IMG/VR virus record: IMGVR_UViG_3300031787_007614
Span: 1 to 64,000 of that record
From: a virus
Length of the DNA: 64,000 bases
Strand: one strand, 5' to 3'
A program made the position numbers and the translations under genes. This document shows positions 1,670-64,000 of this stretch, piece by piece (positions within the stretch are counted from its first letter, which is position 1; the number at the start of each line of letters is the position of its first letter). The notes under the pieces were generated by a model, which was given only the letters and a program-made list of their open reading frames with translations, searched no databases and was not told the origin of the DNA.

Positions 1670-2560
1670 TTAGAACTGTACGACCAACCCGCCTGCTACT
1701 TGTTTGACATCAGTGGCTGCTGAGGTTCCCTCAACTGTACGATACAAAACTTGTGCATAGGTCTTTTTGCTGAAAGCATACTCAGCACCTACGTTGTAAC
1801 TCTTGATGCCATTTTCAATGCGACCATAGCTGGCCTTCACTGTGACTGGTCCACCAAGTTTGTGTGCCACGCCGACCAACTGAGCACGGTTGGTGTTGGC
1901 AGCAACGCCTTTGTTGTCGCTTGCGCTGGCAAACACAGTGGTTGCACCAAATTTAGCACGAGCAGCCAACACGTCACTGGTTTCTGCGCCAGCTTCGTAA
2001 CGAGCATAAGTCAACACAGCAGGTCCAACTGCGGCAATCACGGATGCGGCATAAGGATCAGCGGCAGTGCCAACAGCACCAGTGCTACGATCAAAGTTAG
2101 CAGAGACATTGCCAAAGTTCACAGAAGTGAAAGCGGCATTGCTCAAACGCAAACCACGCAGGTTATGCACGTCGGCAGCTGAGCTACCAATCAATGTGCC
2201 AAATGGATCATTGTCGCTGATGGCCAAGAAGTGAGTGTGAACATTGCGACCAAGATCAACGCTACCCATTTTGTGAGCAATACCCACGGTGCTTTGGCGA
2301 TCGCCAAGTCTAGTGTCAGTACCAGTGTCTGGGCTGTTGGCTTGGATGCCGGTCTCGTATGTGGCACGAGCTGTTAATCCGCCACCTAAGTTTTCAGTAG
2401 CACGAATGCCAAAGTGACTCAAGTCATTGGCCATGCCTTGCACGGTGGAAGCACCAGTTTTGGTGTTGTCAAGGTAAGTGCCAACACGACCATAGATACC
2501 AACTTGTGCGCTTGCAACACCAGCAACTGCCAGGGTCAACGCAATTAGAACTTTCTTCAT
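1670..2560 (-). CDS. Outer-membrane porin, betaproteobacterial general porin type
   Basis: The 296-residue product begins with a classic Sec signal peptide (MKK, hydrophobic core, ASA cleavage site near residue 18). The mature protein is rich in alternating beta-strand patterns, starts with a VGIYGRVGTYL-like first strand, and ends in the terminal phenylalanine (VVQF) used for outer-membrane assembly. This is the layout of trimeric porins of Burkholderiales, though short for the family (usually 330-400 residues). The start has a good RBS (AAGGAA) and its own promoter at 2609-2638, and a terminator follows. A porin is not a standard phage gene. It was probably taken from a host and could change outer-membrane permeability or exclude competing phages; both roles are inferred. 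Confidence 0.85.
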   Translation of the reverse strand: MKKVLIALTLAVAGVASAQVGIYGRVGTYLDNTKTGASTVQGMANDLSHFGIRATENLGGGLTARATYETGIQANSPDTGTDTRLGDRQSTVGIAHKMGSVDLGRNVHTHFLAISDNDPFGTLIGSSAADVHNLRGLRLSNAAFTSVNFGNVSANFDRSTGAVGTAADPYAASVIAAVGPAVLTYARYEAGAETSDVLAARAKFGATTVFASASDNKGVAANTNRAQLVGVAHKLGGPVTVKASYGRIENGIKSYNVGAEYAFSKKTYAQVLYRTVEGTSAATDVKQVAGGLVVQF

Positions 2561-2608: not shown

Positions 2609-2638
2609 ATTATATAGCACAAACACTGAGAATGTCAA
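2609..2638 (-). promoter_or_regulatory. Sigma70-type promoter of the porin gene
   Basis: The minus strand shows -35 TTGACA and -10 TATAAT with an 18-bp spacer, about 50 bp upstream of the porin start codon. It begins immediately after the hairpin that ends the tmRNA locus. Confidence 0.7.
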
Positions 2639-2640
2639 AG

Positions 2641-2666
2641 AAAATGGCTACTTTCGCAGCCATTTT
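2641..2666 (-). terminator. Hairpin ending the tmRNA transcript
   Basis: AAAATGGCT (2641-2649) pairs with AGCCATTTT (2658-2666) in a perfect 9-bp stem with an 8-nt loop. On the minus strand it lies about 40 nt after the tmRNA tag stop codon and its 3' arm ends in four U residues, so it is a likely terminator or 3' end structure for the tmRNA precursor. Confidence 0.5.
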
Positions 2667-2826
2667 GGTGGTTTCTGTTACGAGGTATTTCCTACCCTAG
2701 ACGACCTTAAGCGGCCATCAAGAATTTTTCATCATTTGCAGATAAAAGTTTTGCTTGATTTACGGTCATCGCCTACCGTGCTGTCCACTCTGTTACTCTT
2801 TGCCCTGTCGAATCTAGGTCAGGCCC
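2667..2826 (-). ncRNA. ssrA: tmRNA, coding piece of a permuted two-piece gene
   Basis: The 5' end GGGCCTG (2826-2820) pairs over 7 bp with CAGGTCC, which precedes the discriminator and CCA of the acceptor piece at 3042-3106. The conserved tmRNA motif GATTCGACAGG is at 2804-2814. A tag reading frame follows at 2739-2707: GCA resume codon, peptide ANDEKFLMAA, stop TAA. It closely resembles the betaproteobacterial ANDERFALAA-type tag. Because the CCA-bearing half lies upstream on the same strand, the gene is circularly permuted, the form whose precursor is processed into two RNAs. It would rescue stalled ribosomes and mark products for proteolysis. The 3' boundary is estimated. Confidence 0.88.
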
Positions 2827-3041
2827 ATCATAAAGAAACTTAATCTACGCTTAATGTTGTTAACAACAAGCATAATATTGGAAAAACAATTAATAAAAAT
2901 TTTGCTAAATTTTCCATATTACCATAACTCACAGTTTTTTATTTTCTCTTCGTCCAATGTGGTATCACGTGTAAAATAAAATACACCAAACACTAACCAA
3001 AATAACAAAAATAAAACATAACCTATCATTAAACTTCCTTA
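2827..3041 (-). other. Intervening segment of the permuted tmRNA precursor
   Basis: These 215 nt lie between the encoded CCA of the acceptor piece and the 5' end of the coding piece and should be removed during maturation. The stretch is AT-rich. It includes a perfect inverted repeat, TTGTTAACAA, near 2860-2871 and the possible small ORF at 2919-3029. Intervening segments in known permuted tmRNAs are generally shorter, as far as I recall. Confidence 0.6.
2919..3029 (-). CDS. Possible 36-residue membrane peptide inside the tmRNA intervening segment
   Basis: An ATG with an upstream AAGGAAG, spaced like a Shine-Dalgarno site, opens 36 codons. Residues 3-18 are strongly hydrophobic (MIGYVLFLLFWLVFGV) and the rest is polar and charged (TRDTTLDEEK). 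A single-pass small membrane protein is conceivable. Because the frame lies entirely in the excised part of the tmRNA precursor and begins 12 nt after its CCA, it may be a chance ORF. No homologue is recognised. Confidence 0.3.
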   Translation of the reverse strand: MIGYVLFLLFWLVFGVFYFTRDTTLDEEKIKNCELW

Positions 3042-3106
3042 TGGTGGACCTGGGGGGATTCGCACCCCCGTCCAGAACACTTTTCTCTCGGCTTCATACA
3101 GCAATA
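3042..3106 (-). ncRNA. ssrA: tmRNA, acceptor piece with encoded CCA
   Basis: On the minus strand the segment ends TTCTGGACGGGGG, TGCGAAT, CCCCC, CAGGTCC, A, CCA: a T-arm of 5 bp, an acceptor strand complementary to the 5' end of the coding piece at 2826-2820, discriminator A and CCA at 3044-3042. The TCTGGACG sequence before the T-stem matches the usual tmRNA 3' domain. GCTGT near 3095 can pair with ACAGC of the coding piece, as expected for the helix joining the two RNAs. A consensus promoter at 3113-3141 would start transcription near 3106. Confidence 0.85.
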
Positions 3107-3112
3107 ACTCGC

Positions 3113-3141
3113 AGTATATATTTATTCTTTGGGCTTGTCAA
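3113..3141 (-). promoter_or_regulatory. Sigma70-type promoter of the permuted tmRNA
   Basis: The minus strand has a perfect -35 TTGACA and -10 TATACT with a 17-bp spacer, pointing directly at the acceptor piece. It overlaps the 3' end of the small CDS at 3122-3283. An AATAAATA octamer (3119-3126), resembling a T4 late promoter, lies inside the spacer. Confidence 0.75.
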
Positions 3142-3831: not shown

Positions 3832-3917
3832 TGGTACCAGAGACGGGACTCGAACCCGTATGCCCTTGCAAGCGGCAGATTTTAAGTCTGCTGTGTATAC
3901 CATTCCACCACTCTGGC
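3832..3917 (-). tRNA. tRNA-Leu (TAA)
   Basis: This class II tRNA on the minus strand has acceptor GCCAGAG/CTCTGGT, anticodon stem GCAGA/TCTGC with loop CTTAAAA giving anticodon TAA, a long variable arm, T-arm ACGGG TTCGAGT CCCGT, discriminator A and an encoded CCA. It is the last of three closely spaced tRNA genes. Confidence 0.93.
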
Positions 3918-3935
3918 TTTGCGTTATTTAATACA

Positions 3936-4010
3936 TGGTCCGGCGTAGAGGAATCGAACCTCTATAATGACTTTAGAAGAATCATGTCCTATCCGTTGAA
4001 CGAACGCCAG
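3936..4010 (-). tRNA. tRNA-Arg (TCT)
   Basis: On the minus strand it has acceptor CTGGCGT/ACGCCGG, D-arm GTTC...GGAC, anticodon stem TGATT/AGTCA with loop CTTCTAA giving anticodon TCT, T-arm AGAGG TTCGATT CCTCT and an encoded CCA. TCT reads AGA/AGG codons, which are commonly supplemented by phages relative to GC-richer hosts. Confidence 0.9.
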
Positions 4011-4015
4011 ATGTT

Positions 4016-4090
4016 TGGTGGGCCAACTTGGAATTGAACCAAGACTCGACCGATTATGAGTCGGTTGCTTTACCATTAAGCTATTGGCCC
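4016..4090 (-). tRNA. tRNA with CAT anticodon (elongator Met or Ile2)
   Basis: On the minus strand it has acceptor GGGCCAA/TTGGCCC, D-arm GCTT...AAGC, anticodon stem ACCGA/TCGGT with loop CTCATAA, T-arm CTTGG TTCAATT CCAAG, discriminator A and an encoded CCA. The anticodon CAT fits elongator tRNA-Met or a lysidine-modified tRNA-Ile; sequence alone does not decide. It is not an initiator, since the first acceptor pair is G-C. Confidence 0.92.
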
Positions 4091-4523: not shown

Positions 4524-4552
4524 ATTATACAAAAATGCTAAGTGTTTGTCAA
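4524..4552 (-). promoter_or_regulatory. Consensus sigma70 promoter
   Basis: The minus strand has TTGACA and TATAAT, both perfect, with a 17-bp spacer, about 30 bp upstream of the gene at 4114-4494. The -35 box overlaps the stop codon of the desaturase gene. Confidence 0.85.
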
Positions 4553-5313
4553 CGGTCTTTGTCAGTTCTTACCAATTGAATTAAGCGGTATCCAGGATCA
4601 AATTCCCACCATTTTTTGCCAAACTGTGGATCTGCGGCAGCGGCGTGATGATTGTTGTGCCAGCCCTCTCCACCAGTCAAATATCCTACCAGCAGGTTAT
4701 TTGAACTTTGATCACGTGTGTCAAAATTTCTATATCCTGATGGACTGTGAGTGAGAGAGTTGGTCAGTGAACTGGCATGTTGCAACAATAGTGACGGAAC
4801 CAAATAAGCATACACTACTGCATAAGGATCTATCATGTAAACTGCCACCCCGACCAAGATAGTGTACAACCAATGATTGTAGTACATGTGCATGTGAAAT
4901 TTGGATTTCACAATCTCTGGAGCATAACTTAATTTTGGAGTAGCAGGTGTGAGTCTAAATTGCACGGCTAGATAACCGTATACCGCAGGTGAGTGCGGAT
5001 CATCTTTTGTGTCAGAGTGTCTATGATGCGCTCGATGTATTGCTACCCAATACAACATTGGTAAAGTTGTGCCAGGAATAGCAATCAATGTTCCTAGATA
5101 TTCAAACCATTTTGGTGCTTGAAAAGAACGATGGGTGATCAGCCGATGAACTGTTACAGTTCCGACTACCATCTTGATATAGTAGACCAACAGACATATT
5201 GCCCACTGCCATGCTTCACTGTTGAAGATAAAGTAGACCAGGATCACATGTAGACAGGCACTGTATGCAATCATTTCGTTGTGCGAAGGCACAAACCAGT
5301 TTTTCTTTTTCAT
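4549..5313 (-). CDS. Fatty acid (acyl) desaturase, membrane di-iron type
   Basis: The 254-residue protein has the three histidine clusters of stearoyl-CoA/acyl-lipid desaturases: HRLITHRSF near residue 56, HRAHHRHSD near 89 and HNNHHAAAA near 217. These bind the two irons. At least four hydrophobic segments flank them. The enzyme would introduce a double bond into membrane lipid acyl chains using electrons from a host donor. It is a metabolic gene in a phage early region, expected to alter host membrane fluidity or lipid composition during infection. Length fits the shorter bacterial family members. Confidence 0.88.
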   Translation of the reverse strand: MKKKNWFVPSHNEMIAYSACLHVILVYFIFNSEAWQWAICLLVYYIKMVVGTVTVHRLITHRSFQAPKWFEYLGTLIAIPGTTLPMLYWVAIHRAHHRHSDTKDDPHSPAVYGYLAVQFRLTPATPKLSYAPEIVKSKFHMHMYYNHWLYTILVGVAVYMIDPYAVVYAYLVPSLLLQHASSLTNSLTHSPSGYRNFDTRDQSSNNLLVGYLTGGEGWHNNHHAAAADPQFGKKWWEFDPGYRLIQLVRTDKDR

Positions 5314-5480: not shown

Positions 5481-5773
5481 AGCCTGGAATCATAAGTGAA
5501 GGCAGCAAGATATCGCATGCTGGCACGGCTGGGAATGTGCTGATTACAGAACCGTTGGTATGCCGCACGCCAACGCTTTTGGACAGGTGCTGGCGCATGG
5601 CAAGCAAGATAATGCAAGTGGCCAAATCTGCGCCCAATGCTGATGTGATTGGGCTTCCAGCCTGCAGGATACCATTTGTCGCGAGTTTGCCAATTGTAGT
5701 TTACCCAGACACCCATTCGGCGTTCTTGCATGATATACTTTTTAGATATATCTTGTGGTCTAAATCGGTTCAT
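5477..5773 (-). CDS. Hypothetical protein, 98 residues, basic
   Basis: A basic, tryptophan-rich protein (WVNYNW, DKWYPAGWKP, RWRAAYQRF). It is linked by ATGA overlaps to both neighbours: the SPFH lipoprotein upstream and the 52-residue gene downstream. No recognised domain, signal or membrane segment. Confidence 0.7.
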   Translation of the reverse strand: MNRFRPQDISKKYIMQERRMGVWVNYNWQTRDKWYPAGWKPNHISIGRRFGHLHYLACHAPAPVQKRWRAAYQRFCNQHIPSRASMRYLAAFTYDSRL

Positions 5774-6564
5774 TTTTGCATCATCAGCGCATTGAAGTTT
5801 GCAGGAACAACAATTGTTTGCACACGACCGTTCTTGATACCTTCTGAGATATTCATCATAGCCTGCGCTTGCATGTAAGCAATTGACTGAGCACCTTGAT
5901 TACTCAATGCTTGCATACGTTCTGCTTCCATCTTAGCAGTCTTAACTTCAACTTCTTTTTGTTTCAATTCATTCTTGGCACGAACCAACTCATTTGCACT
6001 CGCAACCACAGAATCTGCAGGTACAATATTCCGAATCAACACTTGACCAACAACCAAACTACCATCAAGTTTTTCATCAGCCAAACTCTTTTGAATTTGT
6101 TCTTTAATTGCTTGTTCCATCACTTGGCGATTATCAGCCATGTCTAGTGCCTCGTACTTTCGGGCTTCTTTGTAGATGGCATTACGAGTGGTTTGAACCA
6201 TATAGTTGTACATCAAGTAGATGTCGCCGTTGTGCCGAGCATGGAATGCTTGACTCTTTTGGCTATACAACTCGGCTACCTGTGCTTGATTGATGTTATA
6301 GATAACCACTGCATCAAAGTCTTTCATTGTTGAGTTATCTTTAGCAACAGGTGTCATGTCCTCCAGTTTGACATTAACGTCCTTGATTGGGAATGTAAGA
6401 ACATCACCCCAAAAGGTTTGATTAAACGAGCCAGGCATTAATTCACCTTGCTGGACTTGTTTATCAAAGCCAACACGTACACCAACTTCACCTGTTTCGA
6501 TACGAGTACAACCTGTTGCCAGCACAGCCGCGGCAAGAACGGAGAGAGTCAAAATACGTTTCAT
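5770..6564 (-). CDS. SPFH/band-7 (prohibitin-like) lipoprotein
   Basis: The N-terminus is a lipoprotein signal with a lipobox (LATGC, Cys19). An SPFH domain follows: the GEVGVRVGF strand, a central helix-strand region, and a long C-terminal coiled coil rich in K, E and A (VRAKNELKQKEVEVKTAKMEAE). At 264 residues it is close to prohibitin or HflC in size. SPFH proteins form large membrane rings that regulate proteases such as FtsH, which in lambda and E. coli affects lysogeny and protein turnover. Here it is predicted to be anchored at the periplasmic face. Its role in infection is unknown; host membrane or protease control is inferred. Confidence 0.82.
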   Translation of the reverse strand: MKRILTLSVLAAAVLATGCTRIETGEVGVRVGFDKQVQQGELMPGSFNQTFWGDVLTFPIKDVNVKLEDMTPVAKDNSTMKDFDAVVIYNINQAQVAELYSQKSQAFHARHNGDIYLMYNYMVQTTRNAIYKEARKYEALDMADNRQVMEQAIKEQIQKSLADEKLDGSLVVGQVLIRNIVPADSVVASANELVRAKNELKQKEVEVKTAKMEAERMQALSNQGAQSIAYMQAQAMMNISEGIKNGRVQTIVVPANFNALMMQK

Positions 6565-24112: not shown

Positions 24113-24733
24113 TTATGCTTGATTGTCTGCAGCCAGCTTTTTCTGCAAGTGATTCAACAAGAAACCATACGCAGGCAGAATAACCAACAGACTCACAATG
24201 ATCTTACTGATTGAATTGTTGGTTGCAACAATGTGCCAGTTAGCAGCCATGAACTCATTTGCGCCACCAGCAAAGGCAGTAAAGAAGAACACATAGGTAT
24301 CAAAGAATGTGCTCACAATTGAACTCAATGCAGGAGCAATCCACCAAGTGGCGTACTTTTCACGAATGTATTGGAACACGTACACATCAAGCAAGTTGCT
24401 CACAAAGTATGCAACACCCGAGCCAAGACCAATGCGGAAAGCAACTGAGTCAGGAGCACCGCCCAGTTTGACCACTGCCATTGACACAATGATAGCAGGG
24501 ATGAATGCCAATGCAATCACCGCACGACCAGTTTGTTTGCCTAACATTCGCACAGTCAAGTCGGTCAACACAACCACTAGTGGGAATGTGAATGCGGCTG
24601 CTGCCAATGGTGCACCAAACACTGAGAATTTGAATTGCACAATGTAGTTGCTGATAGCAATGATAATGATATGTGCCAGCATGAGCTTGTAGGCCAATGC
24701 ACGGTCAACGCCACTTAAGATTCGATCTAACAT
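24113..24733 (-). CDS. YhhQ/VUT-type queuosine-precursor transporter
   Basis: 206 residues with six hydrophobic helices, PLVVVLTDLTVRMLGKQTGR in the middle, and FVSNLLDVYVFQYIREKYATWW, SSIVSTFFDTYVF matching the VUT (YhhQ) family. E. coli YhhQ imports preQ0 and preQ1. It lies directly upstream of, and in the opposite order to, QueD on the same strand. In this set it would bring in precursors and could compensate for the missing QueC. Confidence 0.85.
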   Translation of the reverse strand: MLDRILSGVDRALAYKLMLAHIIIIAISNYIVQFKFSVFGAPLAAAAFTFPLVVVLTDLTVRMLGKQTGRAVIALAFIPAIIVSMAVVKLGGAPDSVAFRIGLGSGVAYFVSNLLDVYVFQYIREKYATWWIAPALSSIVSTFFDTYVFFFTAFAGGANEFMAANWHIVATNNSISKIIVSLLVILPAYGFLLNHLQKKLAADNQA

Positions 24734-27491: not shown

Positions 27492-27898
27492 ACGCAAACT
27501 TCCTCTTTGAGATATCGTTTGAGTTCTTTGTCATTGGGTTCTACAGTATAGTTCTTCTTGAAAAAAATTTCATAACTATCACTGCCGTATTTGCCAATGC
27601 CGTACAAATCGGTAGCATCATCACCATTCCAAGTCATGTAGTCTTGACTCATTTTTTTCAATCTGGTGTATCTTACATTAGCCATACCTAATGGTGCAAT
27701 AATGCTTTTTACAAAATCTTCATCGGCTGCGATCAATGCTTCCGGCGTTGGGAACCAGTATAAAAATTCTGGCAAGGTTGTTTTTACAGATTTGCGGCCT
27801 GTTTGATTCAACATGATCACTCCAACCATGTGTTCCCATGAGTTAGAGATTTGTTGTTGAACCATCAGATCATCTCGTAATGCATGAAAAAATATCAT
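27488..27898 (-). CDS. HhH-GPD DNA glycosylase, MBD4 catalytic-domain-like
   Basis: 136 residues aligning along their length to the glycosylase domain of MBD4 (from memory): VGVIMLNQTGRKS, FPTPEALIAADEDFVKSIIA with PLGM, then LYGIGKYGSDSYEIF, which is the helix-hairpin-helix plus catalytic Asp, and the end DKELKRYL. MBD4-type enzymes excise T or U from G mismatches. Here it lies directly after FolE in the deazaguanine set. A repair or base-processing role is inferred. Confidence 0.82.
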   Translation of the reverse strand: MIFFHALRDDLMVQQQISNSWEHMVGVIMLNQTGRKSVKTTLPEFLYWFPTPEALIAADEDFVKSIIAPLGMANVRYTRLKKMSQDYMTWNGDDATDLYGIGKYGSDSYEIFFKKNYTVEPNDKELKRYLKEEVCV

Positions 27899-28587
27899 CG
27901 TGGTGCAAAGTCCTGTTGTAGTTTGATGTTGTCAAAGAATTCTTTTTTTACACTTTGGTCTGATTTAAACGCACCGTGTAAAACTGTTGTTTGGGTGAGA
28001 CTAGAGTGAGCCATGATACCGCGATTCTCACAACAACCATGGGTAGCTTGTATATAAACTGCAACATCCTTGGACCCGGTCGCGAATTCAATTTCGCGAG
28101 CAATATCCATACATAGCTCTTCTTGGAGAGTGCCTCGACGGGCACACCATTGCGCAATCCTGGTATACTTGGATAGACCAATAAGTTTGGGGCCAGCAAT
28201 GATTCCAATATAAGCCACACCCGTAACAGGCTGGTGATGATGCGAACACATGCTCTTAAGCTCTGAACGCACCACAAGCATACCTTCGTATGCTCCGTCC
28301 GTATCGTTTGGGAAAGCCGTAGCATTAGGGCTCGTCTCATAGCGACCAGCCATAATTTCATTGAAGTACATTTTTGCAAGGCGTTGCGCCGTGCCTTGTG
28401 AGTTAGGATCATTTTCCCTGTCAATTAGTAGTGTATCGAGAACTTGTTCAAATGCTTGAGTGGCCTCCATAATCAAATGTTCACGATCTGACTCAGCAAC
28501 ATAATCACTGATGTTGTCACCAGCCCAGAATCTCTTGCCGTCTGCCTTCATGCGTTCGCGAAGGACTTGTGATAGATTTTTTTCCAA
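27895..28587 (-). CDS. folE: FolE, GTP cyclohydrolase I
   Basis: 230 residues with SMCSHHHQPVTG (Cys114, His117 region), LIGLSKYTRIAQWCARR and HGCCENRG supplying zinc ligands and active-site residues of GTP cyclohydrolase I. It makes dihydroneopterin triphosphate, the first step to 7-deazaguanines. A consensus promoter precedes it. Confidence 0.93.
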   Translation of the reverse strand: MEKNLSQVLRERMKADGKRFWAGDNISDYVAESDREHLIMEATQAFEQVLDTLLIDRENDPNSQGTAQRLAKMYFNEIMAGRYETSPNATAFPNDTDGAYEGMLVVRSELKSMCSHHHQPVTGVAYIGIIAGPKLIGLSKYTRIAQWCARRGTLQEELCMDIAREIEFATGSKDVAVYIQATHGCCENRGIMAHSSLTQTTVLHGAFKSDQSVKKEFFDNIKLQQDFAPR

Positions 28588-63046: not shown

Positions 63047-63737
63047 GTTTTTTCACTATGGGCAGAGTTTTCCTAACCATGCCCGGGCATACCATACTCA
63101 GCATGGTTTCATATTGTAGGCTATTGTGCTCGATGTAGTAATAGCTTTCAGTAACATCATTGCGCCACCAATACACCCGTGTTGGCCTAATTTCAATATC
63201 TAAAAATTCTCGCAAACTCTTGCTGGCTGCAACGTCATTGCCCTGGGTGGTTATCCATGCAGCCAGTCGAGACTTTTGTGTTTTGCCAAGTGATCGCCCA
63301 CGGAAATAAGTGCGGTATTGATACTGTGGATTTTTTAATAAAATTGTATCAGGTGGCAAATTGAGTTCTGCTCGTTTGAGATCTACAGACTCAATCCAAT
63401 CGCATGCCATCAATCGACCATGCAAGCCAAGATTGTTTGTGTACACTGTGAGATAATTGTTGAAAAACACCATTTTCTTTGGGGGAGTTTCTGCTGCCAA
63501 CAGTGCTCGCATGCCTTCTAAATTGTCACAACAGCGTGTGGTAAATTTGCTTATAAATTTTTCGCCATAGCGTTGGTAATGAGAATTTCTACTAGCTTCG
63601 TACTCCATTCTCACGCGAATGTGTGACTGCATTTTCTTTTGATCAAGACTGCGAATACACCCAATTTCGTCCTGCTGCCAGGTCATGGCATATTCATATG
63701 CGTTGTAGTACAACGAACTACGCGATTCACTTCTCAT
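63042..63737 (-). CDS. Hypothetical T4-like phage protein, 231 residues
   Basis: RSSLYYNAYEYAMTWQQDEI, SHIRVRMEYEASRNSHYQRY, MVFFNNYLTVYTNNLGL and YRTYFRGRSLGKTQKSRLAA. The basic, aromatic-rich layout recurs in T4-like phages of aquatic bacteria. No domain recognised. Its start overlaps the end of the Clp-like gene upstream by 11 bp. Confidence 0.68.
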   Translation of the reverse strand: MRSESRSSLYYNAYEYAMTWQQDEIGCIRSLDQKKMQSHIRVRMEYEASRNSHYQRYGEKFISKFTTRCCDNLEGMRALLAAETPPKKMVFFNNYLTVYTNNLGLHGRLMACDWIESVDLKRAELNLPPDTILLKNPQYQYRTYFRGRSLGKTQKSRLAAWITTQGNDVAASKSLREFLDIEIRPTRVYWWRNDVTESYYYIEHNSLQYETMLSMVCPGMVRKTLPIVKKQ

Positions 63738-64000
63738 TGTCCACCACTATAATTCCATCAACATTTACACTTGCAATCACTTCCACAGGTGCGTCCGCTT
63801 GAACATCAAACACAATTTTGTCCGCCACAACATCCGCAGTGATAGTACAATCACGCAAGCGATCAAACAGGATCTTCTTGCTCAACGGCACACGAATCAG
63901 TTCATCAATCTTCCTCGAGAGTGGTCGCGCACCCAGCTTCGAATCATAGCCCTTGTCAGCAAGCAGGTCAACTGCGCCTTCGGATAAGTTGAGACGTATA
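63727..64000 (-). CDS. ClpA/ClpB-type ATPase, C-terminal fragment (window edge)
   Basis: The reading frame enters from the window edge and reads LNLSEGAVDLLADKGYDSKL then GARPLSRKIDELIRVPLSKK ILF, the conserved D2-small-domain end of Hsp100/Clp ATPases (GYD...GARPL.R.I). About 90 codons are inside the window and the gene continues beyond 64000. It would be a chaperone or protease partner; the phage may use it in virion assembly or host protein turnover. Confidence 0.78.
   Translation of the reverse strand, partial: IRLNLSEGAVDLLADKGYDSKLGARPLSRKIDELIRVPLSKKILFDRLRDCTITADVVADKIVFDVQADAPVEVIASVNVDGIIVVDNEK

Follow-up and report, generated by a model that had tools for sequence, protein, structure and literature searches.

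A two-piece tmRNA gene in a jumbo phage that also carries Clp genes

A jumbo phage of 364,404 bases, IMG/VR record IMGVR_UViG_3300031787_007614, carries a circularly permuted, two-piece tmRNA gene together with a near-complete Clp system of its own, and it is this combination, not the gene alone, that is noteworthy. A tmRNA frees stuck ribosomes and marks unfinished proteins for destruction, and the Clp machinery normally reads the mark. The gene lies on the minus strand of what we call the window—positions 1 to 64,000 of the record—and it is real, well conserved and a member of an already known class of phage-borne permuted tmRNAs.

An earlier note, made from the letters of the window, had thought a permuted tmRNA unusual for a phage. 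The numbers say otherwise: 53 two-piece tmRNAs, nearly all aquatic, were counted among 18,146 phage genomes in 2022, and the same source gives an account of phage Melnitz and its two-piece tmRNA (PMC9004378); a degenerate pattern matches at least 120 stretches of IMG/VR; and several isolates carry such genes. Counted with all forms together, unique phage tmRNAs number 79 (PMC11915505).

The gene and its precursor

The Rfam model of permuted tmRNA (RF04321, tmRNA_permuted; curated cut-off 47 bits) matches 3103-2707 on the minus strand over the whole model (positions 1-213) with 115 bits (E 1e-21), and ARAGORN places a permuted tmRNA at 2616-3134 (minus strand), with the tag ANDEKFLMAA and a TAA stop. 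Both confirm the permuted two-piece gene and the tag frame that the earlier note had read from the sequence, and its placing of the CCA, of G1, of the tag frame and of the order of the pieces agrees with our own reading. The covariance search that it proposed as a check succeeded with RF04321, over its cut-off at the expected position, and failed with beta_tmRNA (RF01850), which matches in two separate pieces of 65.2 and 18.7 bits, below its cut-off of 84; the alpha_tmRNA model gives 57 bits (cut-off 50). Because the tmRNAs of sister phages clear the beta cut-off, with 112 and 109.6 bits, the window gene counts as beta-like but diverged. Gene order, the acceptor, T and P2 helices, the G3-U70 pair, the CCA, the GCA at which translation resumes and a tag of 10 amino acids are as in RF04321 and RF01850; what sets the gene apart from other permuted tmRNAs is a spacer longer than most and the ending FLMAA, which none of the 1273 tags in ARAGORN's table has.

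By sequence, the acceptor piece (3042-3106, minus strand) stands 5' of the coding piece (2667-2826, minus strand). The acceptor piece, drawn from the models, the sequence and covariation, with an approximate 5' end, holds the 5' strands of P2b and P2a, the T arm, the acceptor 3' strand and an encoded ACCA, that is, the discriminator A and the CCA read at 3044-3042. The coding piece, drawn from RF04321, the sequence and covariation, with an estimated 3' end, starts with G1 at 2826 and holds the acceptor 5' strand GGGCCTG, the D-loop-like GATTCGACAGG, the 3' strands of P2a and P2b, the PK1 region, the tag frame (GCA to TAA, 2707-2739 with the stop included, minus strand), a 3' helix and an AACAGAA motif. 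GGGCCTG pairs with CAGGTCC in the 7-bp acceptor helix that the earlier note had described, G3-U70 included. Between the pieces lies a spacer of 215 nt (2827-3041, minus strand), whose complementary ends, by folding and spacer-end pairing, prolong the acceptor helix. The uncut precursor folds more stably than its shuffles (z = -4.1), and its minimum-energy structure contains the P2, T and acceptor helices; the spacer ends pair at -11.4 kcal/mol against -5.7 for shuffled ones, and among phage permuted tmRNA genes, they pair more strongly than their own shuffles in 96% of 97 cases.

Ahead of the gene, the promoter scan finds a sigma70-type promoter, TTGACA-17-TATACT (3113-3141, minus strand), which had been described as perfect; it scores 11/12, and the perfect 12/12 site (2638-2609, minus strand) is that of the downstream porin gene. 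In this region, promoter-like sites often arise by chance (4 observed, 2.5 expected), and one sister phage (G029, tmRNA L218) has identical hexamers with identical spacing ahead of its tmRNA. The hairpin reported after the coding piece is indeed there, at 2666-2641 on the minus strand, and is a probable terminator by its sequence and folding; the scan scored it on the plus strand only, and CTTTG follows it on the minus strand.

Relatives, neighbours and hosts

Who are the relatives of this phage, and do they keep the gene? Its polymerase is a family-B, T4-type DNA polymerase, which bears out the description of the carrier as T4-like, and among named phages this polymerase is closest to those of the jumbo phages Phosso (51% identity), Atu_ph07, 121Q and GAP32, with Rak2-like jumbo phages among the nearest. 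Host-like phage genes in the window, all on the minus strand, are a fatty-acid desaturase (4549-5313), a Band_7 protein (5770-6564), a protein of a vitamin-uptake transporter family (24113-24733) and GTP cyclohydrolase I (27895-28587). Further assemblies of the same virus have the identical tmRNA gene and tag. In sister phages, whose polymerase is 88% identical, the permuted tmRNA is flanked on one side by tRNA-Met/Arg and an orf3292 homologue and on the other by tRNA-Glu/Asp. This is the place that the gene holds in the window, where ARAGORN puts tRNA-Leu, -Arg and -Met upstream (3832-4090) and tRNA-Asp and tRNA-Glu downstream (799-1151), all on the minus strand. The sister tags are ANDEQFALAA and ANDSQFALAA, the second stopped by TGA, and the same place with other tags points to a gene that the ancestor of this phage group probably already had, with a tag that has been changing. 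The sister-phage tmRNAs L218 and L221 (G029 and G027) have a spacer of 23 nt and encode ACCU at the 3' end instead of ACCA; they would need CCA repair.

An exact 30-base core matched 88 stretches of IMG/VR, and the contigs with pattern matches span about 4 to 345 kb. About 120 distinct permuted tmRNA genes were taken from the IMG/VR matches and related loci, and 100 representatives, nearly all of them IMG/VR contigs, served for helix covariation and tag counts. Of 37 distinct genes for which the acceptor partner was chosen without regard to its pairing, 35 paired at 7/7, in eight stem types, against 25% (maximum 49%) with shuffled partners; the remaining two look like one-base register errors of the search pattern. 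G3-U70 is kept in all 37, and ACCA is encoded in 33, the window gene among them. Across the 100 representatives, the acceptor helix shows 105 double-change cells, the T stem 94, P2b 57 and P2a 48—counts of sequences, not of independent events, in a set that the acceptor and T stem had served to find—and the PK1 stem covaries too. The earlier note had staked its reading on relatives that keep the acceptor helix and the tag frame; beside the 35 paired genes, all 100 tags are open. Four true relatives (L214, L215, L218 and L221) escaped ARAGORN but not the covariance model, so the number of phage tmRNAs that ARAGORN reports is a minimum. The one-piece tmRNA model gave nothing over cut-off in related phages.

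Directly downstream of the tmRNA gene is a porin gene (Porin_4, 296 aa; 1670-2560, minus strand). Outer-membrane beta-barrel genes, for a porin or a small barrel, are the first long downstream gene in 16 of 72 distinct phage tmRNA loci (the window at 1670-2560, L264, L018, L242, L245, L248, L269, L290, L301, L313 and others), against 8 of 688 other nearby ORFs (Fisher p 3e-12, with barrels recognised by a sequence rule and loci not fully independent); the four barrel proteins tested have no counterpart among the PHROGs families. Other genes also recur 3' of the tmRNA, with L235 4397-4681 and L073 1189-1719 among the examples: a short conserved protein (MSNMTPFEIRLELLKMAK..) in 13 loci and a cell-wall hydrolase (Hydrolase_2) in 7.

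A search of genome_contigs with the porin found no relative, and an acceptor pattern gave no match; in the plasmid collection, the porin matches were distant and all in Burkholderiales genera. On such sequence evidence, the host of the window phage is likely betaproteobacterial. A BLAST search with the acceptor piece as query brought up isolates with a permuted tmRNA, each confirmed by RF04321: Stenotrophomonas phages QDWS359, DLP_6 and Marzo; Xanthomonas phages Rb1, X1 and XacN1; Bordetella phage PHB04; and Alcaligenes phage QDWS595. These genes are annotated in some records only. Permuted tmRNAs that are unannotated in public records lie in PV764938 (349596-350198), AP018399 (37231 and 356026), OQ427096 (121009), PQ569993 (16300) and ON331942 (34792), the last with a hypothetical protein annotated across the gene. 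Xanthomonas and Stenotrophomonas (Xanthomonadales) are reported with a one-piece tmRNA, and their phages would carry a form other than the host's. The permuted form has been described for alpha- and betaproteobacteria and for cyanobacteria (PMC11915505).

The tag, the Clp proteins and what the RNA may do

Does the tag itself matter? The earlier note had proposed that the FLMAA ending would alter protease recognition, and as stated, the proposal goes unsupported: 50 of the 1273 tags in ARAGORN's table end MAA, and E. coli ClpXP depends most on the last two alanines and modestly on the antepenultimate residue (PMC7652416). Because MAA endings are ordinary and the residue before the last two alanines matters modestly, ANDEKFLMAA is unremarkable as a degron. 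As a general claim, MAA as a mark of altered recognition is rejected on account of those 50 tags. The Burkholderiales tags printed from the table end LAA; LAA closes 86 of the 100 phage tags and MAA 4, and FLMAA recurs, with other codons, in phage L283 (ANDERFLMAA). At L023, L095, L118, L291 and L305, the tags have 27-29 aa, share VTVSGKNxKFSAR and end LAV or FAV, not LAA; synonymous codon differences in them suggest selection on the peptide.

The protease idea gains substance from another side because the phage encodes its own ClpX, ClpA, ClpP and ClpS. The ClpA-like protein (760 aa; record 63727-66009, of which 63727-64000 is in the window, minus strand) has E. coli ClpA as its best match and scores 793 bits with TIGR02639, under the equivalog cut-off of 993. 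Beyond the window, the record holds ClpP1 (124873-125493), a more distant ClpP2 (127089-127664), ClpS (146492-146803; 79.8 bits, cut-off 23) and, near ClpS, ClpX (401 aa; 147851-149056), as well as DnaJ and Hsp20. The catalytic S/H/D triad of ClpP1 is intact, and ClpP scores 312.8 bits with PRK00277 (cut-off 249) and 297.1 with TIGR00493, slightly under 308.6. ClpX reaches 533.6 bits with the equivalog NF003745/PRK05342 (cut-off 359) and has its zinc finger (zf-C4_ClpX). Aligned to E. coli ClpX, it shows GYVGDD in pore-1, SITRDVSGEG in pore-2, GGRKHP (RKH) and IGF and so retains all of the loops needed for ssrA recognition. SmpB is absent from the record and was found in none of ten related or tmRNA-bearing phages; a search for a release-factor-type rescue protein found none.

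We hold with considerable confidence that this is a functional permuted ssrA gene of the phage, the two-piece RNA of which would work with host SmpB in tagging, followed by ClpXP/ClpAP disposal in which phage Clp proteins may take part. That is, the transcript, once expressed, would fold with its two spacer ends paired in continuation of the acceptor helix; host RNase P at G1 and 3' trimming at the CCA would excise the spacer; and the two RNAs would stay joined via the acceptor, P2a and P2b helices. The conserved G3-U70 would lead to alanylation by the host AlaRS. With host SmpB, the tmRNA would then go into stalled ribosomes, release them and append ANDEKFLMAA, and the tagged fragments, of phage or host, would be degraded by ClpXP/ClpAP, a step that phage ClpX, ClpA, the two ClpP and ClpS, if they read this tag, may keep going during infection.

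A ClpX with the ssrA-reading loops, ClpA, two ClpP and ClpS, the lack of SmpB and the parallel in Phosso together make a phage-run tag-and-degrade pathway with host SmpB plausible. Phosso (PV764938), a cultured Sinorhizobium phage, is likewise a jumbo phage with a permuted tmRNA (349596-350198), ClpX, ClpA and two ClpP; it differs in an alpha-type tmRNA with the tag ANDNVSTKVALAA and in an alphaproteobacterial host. The Clp family of Agrobacterium phage Atu_ph07, ClpS included, was described in 2018 (PMC6102473), and its ClpX is 49% identical to that of the window phage, its ClpA 40% and its ClpP 58%; by contrast, a tmRNA goes unmentioned in that paper, and we obtained no RF04321 match under strict filters. 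Methylophilales phage Melnitz and other aquatic phages share with the window phage a permuted tmRNA in a T4-like phage, but the Melnitz tmRNA is alpha-like with a glutamine riboswitch (PMC9004378), whereas the window gene is beta-like with no riboswitch at the Rfam gathering threshold, and the window phage has its own Clp set. Because seven phages have a permuted tmRNA with no Clp genes seen (QDWS359, Rb1, X1, Marzo, DLP_6, PHB04 and QDWS595) and Atu_ph07 has Clp genes without a tmRNA match, the two are not obligately linked in phages, and the link is not general.

Many phages have the RNA without Clp genes, as one would expect if tmRNA mainly recycled ribosomes, host ClpXP removed the tagged proteins and the phage Clp proteins, unrelated to the tag, served virion assembly, replication or chaperoning. 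We give this account, which disputes only the last step of our own, somewhat less than an even chance. Such roles have been proposed for phage Clp, that of Atu_ph07 included (PMC6102473, PMC7824862), and a jumbo-phage review takes phage ClpX and ClpA for translocases or for chaperones of assembly (PMC7824862), but the phage ClpX has every ssrA-recognition loop, and Phosso has the same combination of tmRNA and Clp. The beta-like sequence, the adjoining porin gene and the plasmid-collection matches, all in Burkholderiales, might instead mark an unselected passenger from a betaproteobacterial host, an already disfavoured and quite improbable idea, given that sister phages keep the place, compensate stem changes and keep their tags open. 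Least probable of all is that the RNA acts as a decoy, titrating SmpB or blocking the host tmRNA, a role that has been suggested for the tag-less form of mycobacteriophage DS6A (PMC4131195): the lack of a phage SmpB would suit a decoy, but a decoy needs neither the full tag frame and stop nor the alanine-identity pair nor the CCA, all conserved.

One may go further than a functional phage ssrA gene and imagine a largely self-supplied pathway, in which a private FLMAA tag is read preferentially by phage ClpX/ClpA-ClpP and only SmpB, AlaRS and RNase P are borrowed, and in which permuted tmRNA genes travel among phages independent of the host's tmRNA form; this we think rather unlikely. None of the papers searched, with few subscription papers among them, was seen to treat tmRNA and Clp as a single phage pathway. 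Until now, phage tmRNAs have for the most part been recorded one genome at a time, with loose explanations. With the RNA, an evolving tag and candidate tag-reading proteases in one genome, and with Phosso as a cultured relative, the question of why phages keep tmRNA becomes directly testable, and the permuted genes of Xanthomonas and Stenotrophomonas phages allow a test of two-piece maturation in bacteria reported to have only the one-piece form.
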